Under the pieces are notes generated by a model that was not told the origin of the DNA, did not search any database, and worked only from the letters and a program-made list of their open reading frames with translations. Shown here in pieces: positions 58,415 to 61,284 of a DNA stretch of 64,000 nt. A program made the translations under genes and the position numbers. Every line of letters begins with the position of its first letter. Positions within the stretch are counted from its first letter, which is position 1. This DNA is from Natronococcus sp. CG52 (GTDB lineage: Archaea > Halobacteriota > Halobacteria > Halobacteriales > Natrialbaceae): assembly GCF_023913515.1 (NCBI RefSeq), contig NZ_CP099391.1, positions 1,984,001 to 2,048,000 on the forward strand, read 5' to 3'.

Positions 58415-58918
58415 ATGTCCGTCCAGACGAACCGAACTGAGTCGCTCGAGGAAAGCGAGGTGTTTCACATCCTCGGCAACGACCGACGCCGGTCGATCGT
58501 CCAACTGCTCGCCGAGGAGTCCGGCCAGGTCGACGTCTCCGACGTCGCGACCGAGATCGCGGCGACCGAATCGGACTCGACGCCCGTTCCGAACAACCTC
58601 TACAAGAGCGTCTACGTCTCCCTGCAGCAGACGCATCTGCCACAGTTACAGGAAGACGCGGTCATCGAGTACGACTCGGACGCAAAGACGATCCGACCCG
58701 GTCCGAACTTCGACGACGTTCTTACGTACGTCGACGGGAACACGACCGATCACTCGTCCGTCCTGCAACGTCATCTCGGACTCTGCCTGTTCGGACTGTT
58801 CCTGATCGCCCTCGCCGGGGTCGACGCCCTGCCGCTCTCGAGTCTGGATCCGGTTCTCTCGAGCGTGCTCGTCTTGCTCGCCGTCGCCGCGAGCAGCCTC
58901 TACCGGCTGCTGAGCTGA
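58415..58918 (+). CDS. DUF7344-like wHTH protein with membrane helices
   Basis: The 167-residue protein has a wHTH (VFHILGNDRRRSIVQLLAEE, NLYKSVYVSLQQTHLPQLQE, DAVIEYDSDAKTI) followed by two C-terminal membrane helices (about 121-138 and 143-163). This layout matches the paralogue at 54696-55232. It is a membrane-tethered regulator candidate. It converges with the secreted repeat protein. Confidence 0.85.
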   Translation: MSVQTNRTESLEESEVFHILGNDRRRSIVQLLAEESGQVDVSDVATEIAATESDSTPVPNNLYKSVYVSLQQTHLPQLQEDAVIEYDSDAKTIRPGPNFDDVLTYVDGNTTDHSSVLQRHLGLCLFGLFLIALAGVDALPLSSLDPVLSSVLVLLAVAASSLYRLLS

Positions 58919-59057: not shown

Positions 59058-59136
59058 TAGTAACAATTGAAACGGGTCACACCCGATCGCACGACGGCTG
59101 TGCGATCGGGTGTGCACTGACTGTCAGTGGTTACTA
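59058..59136 (+). mobile_element. MITE-like palindromic element, short variant
   Basis: The 79-base element has imperfect terminal inverted repeats beginning TAGTAAC and ending GTTACTA. Long inner arms, CACACCCGATCGCAC and GTGCGATCGGGTGTG, are separated by six bases. A longer relative lies at 22175-22297. The terminal CTA (59134-59136) is the stop codon, read TAG on the minus strand, of the secreted repeat protein. It has no coding capacity. Confidence 0.8.
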
Positions 59137-61284
59137 GAGACCGACGGATCCGATCGCAGTCTCTGCATCGTCTTCGTCCTCAGCTGGCGCATCGTCTGCG
59201 CCCTCCTCGTCAGTCGGTCCGTCTTCGACGGTTAACGTCGCAGTTTGCTCCCCGTCTTCGGTGAACACGCCGTGAGTGTACTCCCCGGACTCGAGTGCCG
59301 TCGTGTCGATCTCCTCGAAGGTGATCGTCTCGCTGTCACCCGGACCGAGCGTTACGTCCTCGTTCGCGAGCGCCTCACCGTCGACGCGGAACTCGACTGT
59401 CTGCGTAAGCTCTTCGTCCCCGGTGTTCGTGATCGTCGCAGAGACCTCGATGACGTCGCCCTGGGTCACGGTTACGTCCGTGGGCTCGAGATCATCGACC
59501 TCGAAGACGGCCGCTTCCGGCTCGTCCGCTGCAGTCTCGTTGTCAACCGGTTCTTCTTCAGCCGGTTCTTCTTCAGCCGGTTCTTCGACTGGCTCTTCCG
59601 GTTCTTCCTCAACAGGTTCTTCCTCAACAGGTTCTTCCTCAACAGGTTCTTCCTCAACAGGTTCTTCCTCGGGCTCCTCCGTAACCGGGACCTCGTCGAC
59701 GAAGACGAAGATGGTCGCCTGTTCGATGGTCACTTCGAGGCGCTGGTCAGCAGTGTCATCCTCGAGTTCGTCGTCCTCAGCCGTCTCGTTGTCCTCAGCC
59801 GTCTCGTTGTCCTCAGCCGTCTCGTCGTCCTCTTCGGCCTCATCCTCTTCCTCGAGTTCGTCGTTCTCGACCGTCTCGTTGTCCTCGGCCATCTCGTCGT
59901 CGGCGTCGTAGTCGTCATCAGCCGCATCGTCTTCAACGCCGTTCTCCTCGATCTCATCGTCCTCGACCATCTCACCGTTCATCTCGTCGTCGTTCAAGAC
60001 GACGAAGACGGTCGCCTGTTCGATGGTGATCTGTCGTTCGTCCGCCGCATCCGCGTCGTCCTCATCAAGTTCGTCCGTATCGGCCTCCGATTCGGTATCG
60101 TTAGCGGGTTCGTCGTCGACCGTTTCGTCAGCCGGCTGAACGTCTTCGGCGACGACGAAGATCGTCGCGCGTTCGATCGTGATATCCTCACCACCGTCGT
60201 CGTCCATCTCGTCGTCCGTCGGCATCTCCCCGTGCTCGTGGACGACGATGAAGACGGTCGCCTGTCCGATCGAAACGTCATCCATCAACTCCTCCGCTGA
60301 CGCGTCGTCGGTGGCGTCGCCGATCGGCGTAATCGTTGGCTGTTCGATGGTAACTTCGATCTGGTGATCAGCAGAAGGCGCTTCTTGGTTCTCGTCGTCG
60401 GTCACGTTCTCGTCGTCGGTCACGTTCTCGTCGTCCGCCTCGAGTTCGGTGTCCTCGGCGGCGTCGTGATGAGGCATCTCGCCGACGAACGCGTGAACGT
60501 CCGCCTGCTCGATGACGACGGTGATAGCATCCTCATCAACGGCTTCCGGTTCGTCGTCTACGGGTTCGTCGTCAACCGGTTCTTCTTCGACCGGTTCTTC
60601 TTCAACTGGCTCTTCTTCAACTGGCTCTTCTTCAACTGGCTCTTCCTCGTTTAGTTCGTCAGCGGGATCCGTTTCAGATTCTTCCTCGAGGGAGACGACT
60701 GCCTCGTCGATGACCGGTTCATCGTCGGCCGTGAGGTACGGGCCGTCCTCCTCGCCTTCAGTCTCGACGAAGTCGTACTCCTGGTTGTCGTTCGTGTCGC
60801 GATGTGGCATCGCGATCAGGGTTTCCTCTTCTTCGAGCGGTTCGTCGAGCGTGACCTCCACGTCTTCGTGGCTGCCTTCCTCGAGGTACTCCGAAACGCC
60901 GACGACGCTTCCGAGCGCGTCGCCCTCGAGCAGGGTGCTATCGTGGATCGTCACGAAGCCGCCGGCTGCCATCGAGACCTCGTCGACGACGACGGTCTCA
61001 CCGTCGCTTTCCTGATCCTCGAAGGTTACGTACGCGGACTGCTGTTCGTCGGGTTCATCGTCCGGCACCCCGTCTTCATCCTCAGCGTCGTCCGTGTCGT
61101 CTTCGGCTGTTTCGTTCTGTTCCGCATCCGGATCCTCGTCCGGAACATCTGTCTCATTCTCACCGGCGTCAGTGTCGTGCTCGTCGACGGTCGTCGCGGC
61201 TGTCGCGCCGACGACCATCGCCCCACTCGAGCACACCAACATCAGTACGGTGAGTAGTACGAGTAACTGATTGCGTGCGTTCAT
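59134..61284 (-). CDS. Large acidic secreted repeat protein (DUF7282-like and CARDB-like domains)
   Basis: The ATG at 61284 gives 716 residues with a Sec-type signal (LLVLLTVLMLVCSSGAMVVG). After an acidic linker comes a DUF7282-like domain (about 85-205; VVVDEVSMAAGGFVTIHDST, LIAMPHRDTNDNQEYDF). Next come two EEEPV-type repeat tracts and six copies of a short beta motif of the form ITIEQATVFVV, spaced by Asp/Glu-rich linkers (about 250-560). A CARDB-like domain closes the protein (about 605-690; VIEVSATITNTGDEELTQTV). No C-terminal membrane anchor is seen. It is probably an extracellular or surface-associated protein. Confidence 0.85.
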   Translation of the reverse strand: MNARNQLLVLLTVLMLVCSSGAMVVGATAATTVDEHDTDAGENETDVPDEDPDAEQNETAEDDTDDAEDEDGVPDDEPDEQQSAYVTFEDQESDGETVVVDEVSMAAGGFVTIHDSTLLEGDALGSVVGVSEYLEEGSHEDVEVTLDEPLEEEETLIAMPHRDTNDNQEYDFVETEGEEDGPYLTADDEPVIDEAVVSLEEESETDPADELNEEEPVEEEPVEEEPVEEEPVEEEPVDDEPVDDEPEAVDEDAITVVIEQADVHAFVGEMPHHDAAEDTELEADDENVTDDENVTDDENQEAPSADHQIEVTIEQPTITPIGDATDDASAEELMDDVSIGQATVFIVVHEHGEMPTDDEMDDDGGEDITIERATIFVVAEDVQPADETVDDEPANDTESEADTDELDEDDADAADERQITIEQATVFVVLNDDEMNGEMVEDDEIEENGVEDDAADDDYDADDEMAEDNETVENDELEEEDEAEEDDETAEDNETAEDNETAEDDELEDDTADQRLEVTIEQATIFVFVDEVPVTEEPEEEPVEEEPVEEEPVEEEPVEEEPEEPVEEPAEEEPAEEEPVDNETAADEPEAAVFEVDDLEPTDVTVTQGDVIEVSATITNTGDEELTQTVEFRVDGEALANEDVTLGPGDSETITFEEIDTTALESGEYTHGVFTEDGEQTATLTVEDGPTDEEGADDAPAEDEDDAETAIGSVGL
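59600..59670 (-). repeat. 15-bp tandem repeat encoding EEEPV
   Basis: The unit GGTTCTTCCTCAACA is repeated exactly about 4.7 times within the secreted-protein gene, with identical codons. This points to recent slippage expansion. Confidence 0.9.
59776..59829 (-). repeat. 18-bp tandem repeat encoding DNETAE
   Basis: About three nearly exact copies of CAGCCGTCTCGTTGTCCT lie in an acidic linker of the secreted protein. Confidence 0.75.
60573..60650 (-). repeat. Second 15-bp tandem repeat encoding EEEPV
   Basis: About five copies of a unit such as ACTGGCTCTTCTTCA lie in the same gene. It encodes the same peptide as the tract at 59600 but with other codons, so the two tracts expanded independently. 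Confidence 0.85.

Follow-up and report, generated by a model that had tools for sequence, protein, structure and literature searches.

Introduction

In the functional amyloid FapC of Pseudomonas, the linkers between the repeats differ widely in length, from about 30 to 260 residues (PMC12392863). Among archaea, the sheath protein SH of Methanospirillum is extracellular and forms six-stranded β-sheets with an amyloid-like assembly (PMC10593813), and Haloferax volcanii biofilms are stained by amyloid dyes in a study that did not establish the protein (PMC4180959). Two domains are also relevant here, DUF7282, present in haloarchaeal surface proteins and sometimes in tandem, and the CARDB / PF1109 domain. 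A literature search on DUF7282 and on the H. turkmenica locus tags did not find any paper in the collection covered.

The protein of 716 residues considered here is encoded in a stretch of 64,000 nucleotides from Natronococcus sp. CG52 (the window). Like FapC, it is predicted to be secreted and contains a small, near-fixed number of imperfect β repeats with variable linkers; its motif array thus shows the FapC/CsgA trait of conserved imperfect β repeats separated by variable linkers, as a functional analogy only. The FapC repeats are of 35-40 residues with conserved Asn/Gln, whereas single strands of about 14 residues are found here, and the protein differs further by its acidic linkers, its additional DUF7282 and Ig domains and the lack of fap-like genes noted nearby. 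FapC is a functional amyloid, while the present family is known from sequence and models and its fibres are putative. No curated amyloid family (FapC/CsgA) was present among the Pfam matches of the protein and the relatives tested. The resemblance to SH lies in the archaeal origin, the predicted extracellular location and the six putative strands, but the domain plan is different and the described assembly of SH is a cell sheath.

Results

Domain architecture and predicted export

The ATG start of the CDS is kept in the relatives, the closest of which belongs to Natronococcus pandeyae (L009/L061). The product is composed of 39% D+E, contains 6 K+R and has a calculated pI of 4.05; no family was assigned to it by an NCBIfam search. 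AlphaFold modelled two domains with confidence, namely DUF7282 and, at about residues 587-689, a domain of Ig-like fold; the six motifs lie between them (Table 1). DUF7282 passed the Pfam gathering threshold (148.7 bits for a cut-off of 27) and the Ig domain matched the CARDB structure 3idu_B over 98 residues (Z 12.3, rmsd 3.1). In the protein itself, CARDB (PF07705) gave no Pfam row at E 0.001, whereas the domains of two relatives, L104 (34.4 bits) and L038 (27.3 bits), were above the cut-off of 22.7. DUF7282, shared with other haloarchaeal surface proteins, is only one part of this protein, and the example of the tandem type that was read (L070) is devoid of a strand array. Neither folded domain had been mentioned in the earlier note on this DNA.

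Table 1. Features of the gene, its product and its two neighbours in the window.
Feature	Position	Strand	Basis
CDS, 716 aa, acidic, predicted exported	59134..61284	-	ORF and relatives
Signal-peptide-like N-terminus, residues 1-30	61195..61284	-	MNARNQLLVxLTALMxVCSSGAMVAGA conserved among relatives, no lipobox
DUF7282 (PF23951), residues 84-197	60694..61035	-	Pfam E 8.8e-44; pLDDT mostly 81-95
First (E/D)3PV array, residues 213-246	60547..60648	-	TRF, repeat comparison
Motif 1 TVVIEQADVHAFVG, residues 255-268	60481..60522	-	motif matrix, AlphaFold strand
18-bp repeat x2.7, VTDDEN-type linker with NVT sequons	60388..60435	-	TRF
Motif 2 EVTIEQPTITPIGD, distinct type, residues 310-323	60316..60357	-	motif matrix, position analysis
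Motif 3 DVSIGQATVFIVVH, residues 336-349	60238..60279	-	motif matrix, AlphaFold strand
Motif 4 DITIERATIFVVAE, residues 367-380	60145..60186	-	motif matrix, AlphaFold strand
Motif 5 QITIEQATVFVVLN, residues 418-431	59992..60033	-	motif matrix, AlphaFold strand
18-bp array x7.4, AEDNET-type linker with NET sequons	59768..59901	-	TRF
Motif 6 EVTIEQATIFVFVD, residues 517-530	59695..59736	-	motif matrix, AlphaFold strand
Second EEEPV array, residues 536-580	59545..59679	-	TRF, repeat comparison
CARDB-like Ig domain, residues 587-689	59218..59526	-	fold match, AlphaFold pLDDT 91-96
Short hydrophobic C-terminal tail ETAIGSVGL	59137..59169	-	form xIGxxA recurs across many relatives
DUF7343 winged-helix protein, one apparent transmembrane segment	61431..61922	-	Pfam, synteny
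DUF7344 protein, convergent downstream neighbour	58415..58918	+	Pfam, synteny

The conserved hydrophobic N-terminus and the presence of nine N-glycosylation sequons for 2.1 expected make export, which the earlier note had assumed, very probable. Anchoring as a haloarchaeal lipoprotein was rejected, as no lipobox precedes Cys18 and this residue is absent from relatives such as L009 and L094. Anchoring as a PGF-CTERM archaeosortase substrate was also discarded, the C-terminus reading DEDDAETAIGSVGL. Past residue 40, the highest 19-residue hydropathy is 1.09 and is located in motif 6.

Identification of the six motifs

The motifs are of 14 residues each and correspond to the consensus V-T-I-E-Q-A-T-I-F-V-V-V (IxIEQATxFVxV type). 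At 12 bits, the 67 relatives yielded 196 sites matching a motif matrix, where shuffled sequences gave 0.06; the 716-residue protein yielded 6, and its shuffles a mean of 0.003. Since the proteins scored had also served to train this matrix, an independent degenerate DNA pattern encoding (I/V)EQAT(I/V)(F/Y)V is the better control; diverged motifs are missed by it, so that the genome counts are lower bounds. The pattern is present in at least 34 of 125 Natrialbaceae genomes, in which the same pattern read backwards had no match. In a class-wide draw, at least 27 of 391 genomes carried it, all of them Natrialbaceae, and the exact pattern was absent from the 290 genomes of other families. The motif is conserved across genera, several of its positions holding about 3 bits of information, whereas the linkers diverge.

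The six sites proposed in the earlier note are thus present, but they are not six copies of one motif: the second (EQPTITPIG) belongs to a distinct type, conserved among relatives, whose end reads TxIG, TxxPI or similar in the majority of proteins with six or three motifs. The proposal that the motifs are short β-strands agrees with both AlphaFold models, of the full protein and of the isolated region, in which all six were predicted as strands with a low confidence (pLDDT about 50-78; pTM 0.40 for the isolated region). In our reading, the first half of the motif is amphipathic and the second is hydrophobic on both faces, which would fit a buried or stacked strand. No PDB match to the strand array was found by Foldseek at E 0.001, by VIA at Z 2 or by hmmsearch, and since the query model was of low confidence this does not demonstrate a new fold. 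A pentapeptide-type β-helix was considered because one-motif relatives read VENPTIENLNVENVTVYV; the fold search gave no match.

Number and order of the motifs

In nearly all of the 67 relatives, the number of motifs is 6, 3 or 1. Some class assignments were made by eye: L044 and L058, with a matrix count of 2, were judged to hold three motifs, one of them sub-threshold; the Natrialba proteins L084, L085 and L097, with matrix counts of 4-5, were judged to hold six when weak ones are included; and L090 and L100 were judged to contain two copies of a one-motif unit. The Natrialba asiatica copy (L063:6001-7218) ends with XRSEMCIRDR, which resembles a sequencing-adapter artefact in the assembly, and its two motifs should therefore not be read as a true count. 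On the DUF7282 tree, which has few columns and many unresolved forks, 11 changes of motif number were counted, where shuffled labels gave 31; L063 was entered in this count as "one", as was the collapsed L072, and both add changes.

The order of the motifs is conserved as well. Individual motifs were assigned to their correct position in 54 of 120 cases for the six-motif proteins (at most 37 when the order was shuffled 500 times) and in 34 of 45 for the three-motif ones (31 in order shuffles). This conservation beyond the shuffles is due mainly to motif 2, motifs 1 and 3-6 being often confused with one another. From one motif start to the next, the spacing ranges from 22 to 224 residues.

One clear case of recent change in motif number was observed. 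The orthologue of genome G008 (L072:6403-7263, - strand; assembly of two contigs) is reduced to 287 aa and one motif. Its DNA aligns to positions 1-782, then 1260-1361 and then from 2109 on of the Natronococcus sp. CG52 CDS. Adjacent segments overlap by about 12 bases at each join; one join, the first, falls within motifs 1 and 5, and the other within a short EDDA repeat common to a linker and the tail. This collapse from six motifs to one fits two deletions between short repeats.

Linkers and micro-repeats

Besides the arrays of Table 1, TRF delineated a 15-bp unit repeated 4.7 times with 100% identity at 59600-59670 and another 15-bp repeat at about 60546-60649. The two EEEPV arrays use different codons, GAG-GAA-GAA-CCT-GTT (x4) and GAA-GAA-GAG-CCA-GTT (x3). 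Among relatives, the linkers of sister species can already be unlike in repeat unit, number of copies and length: EQPEQP is repeated 16.5 times in a linker of L083 and absent from L080, EDDGLDDEDDLD is repeated 3.8 times in L093 and absent from L087, and DEPEE occurs 22 times in L098 and 19 times in L091, these comparisons being between species and not between alleles of one species' strains. Sequons are in excess in the whole family (1029 for 229 expected, 4.5-fold), a value inflated by the repeat units bearing NET or NVT, and their accumulation in the linkers suggests that these are glycosylated.

These results are in agreement with the earlier description of acidic linkers between the motifs, of 15-bp and 18-bp units including the two differently encoded EEEPV arrays, and of linker growth by slippage. 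On the other hand, the strands had been taken for a single array of variable length, and this was not borne out: apart from the collapsed relative, their order is conserved and their number is 6, 3 or 1, so that length varies via the linkers and not the strands. An open-ended motif repeat was rejected for the same clustering of counts. The data separate two layers of evolution, in which number, order and type of the strands would be under selection whereas the linkers are free to slip, and the distinction between the two is a clean one.

Genomic locus

The DUF7343 gene was found directly upstream on the same strand in 41/41 loci examined with flanks, DUF7344 was convergent downstream in 36/41 and an epimerase gene was present at 39/41, indicating a single orthologous locus. 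It adjoins nucleotide-sugar and polysaccharide genes, and in some species is carried by large plasmids. Sequence matches at E 1e-25 were obtained in 101/125 Natrialbaceae genomes, some of them being other DUF7282 proteins. The DUF7343 protein is a likely regulator of the surface-protein gene, possibly anchored in the membrane. With one syntenic locus in many species, the evolution of strands and linkers should be easy to trace.

Discussion

Our tentative preference, on which we are ourselves almost evenly divided, is for a surface or matrix protein, secreted and probably bearing N-linked glycans, in which the DUF7282 and CARDB-like Ig domains flank six β-strands stacked as a sheet core. The short strands would lie side by side within one chain and/or between chains, and the acidic linkers would loop out, hold the chain soluble in salt and bear sugars. 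Selection would fix number, order and type of the strands; the linkers, needing only acidity and disorder, would expand and contract by slippage, and the membrane-anchored DUF7343 neighbour would probably control expression. Against this reading stand the low confidence of the strand models, the lack of a PDB match to the array, the share of the sequon excess that the repeat units themselves could explain, and a position signal due mostly to motif 2. Of the fibre or adhesive protein imagined in the earlier note, the predicted strands, the slipping acidic linkers and the predicted export were retained and the open-ended repetition of strands was not; a fibre or adhesive function is a hypothesis.

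The strands could also fold within a single chain, giving a compact soluble β-domain with the linkers as long loops and no polymer; the three- and one-motif versions would then complete the sheet by oligomerising or adopt a smaller fold. The fixed count and order and the one distinct strand type (motif 2) argue for such a fold, which we nevertheless consider doubtful, as inter-strand spacings of up to 224 residues are unusual for a compact domain and the predicted pTM is only 0.40. That the strands are docking segments joining the sheets of another surface protein, the S-layer or a glycan assembly, the protein being an envelope linker, appears decidedly unlikely: isolated strands in a disordered chain and the conserved site beside nucleotide-sugar and polysaccharide genes are consistent with it, but no partner gene was identified and motif-only paralogues are located elsewhere, one of them adjoining a phosphoenolpyruvate carboxykinase-like ORF.

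Acidic repeats are common among haloarchaeal secreted proteins, and the region might be ordinary halophilic low-complexity sequence in which the hydrophobic motifs serve for spacing only. We hold this to be highly improbable, in view of a 14-residue motif conserved across genera with several positions at about 3 bits while the linkers diverge, and of a reversed DNA pattern without matches.

The preferred reading of a stacked sheet core can be extended, speculatively and with little confidence, to a functional-amyloid-like matrix family of haloarchaea, in which each chain would supply the whole, the half or the sixth of a six-strand layer, hence 6, 3 or 1 motifs, the shorter proteins would oligomerise to fill the layer and the glycosylated acidic linkers would vary freely. 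If true, the family would be a Natrialbaceae counterpart of the protein behind the amyloid-dye staining of haloarchaeal biofilms, and a concrete haloarchaeal candidate for an amyloid-like biofilm protein. Not having been found outside the Natrialbaceae, it should not be the dye-binding protein of Haloferax itself.

Related proteins with other domain plans

A second six-motif protein, of 634 aa, is encoded in the same genome at about G000:C1:1442645-1444549 (L008:1363-3267, + strand) and contains neither DUF7282 nor CARDB; the array can therefore occur without these domains. In other genera, most members of this paralogue family contain 5 or 6 motifs, and one of these is often a motif-2-like strand. 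A C-terminal cysteine (C or CxC) is present in 14 of the 20 members with a complete C-terminus, cysteine being otherwise rare in these proteins. A permuted order was observed in L104, L102, L107 and L108, where the motif array is followed by the CARDB-like domain and then by a C-terminal DUF7282. Finally, the relative L059:178-2145 (- strand) has two Ig-like domains, one of them inserted after DUF7282; the inserted domain is closely similar to the CARDB-like domain of the 716-residue protein, suggesting domain shuffling.
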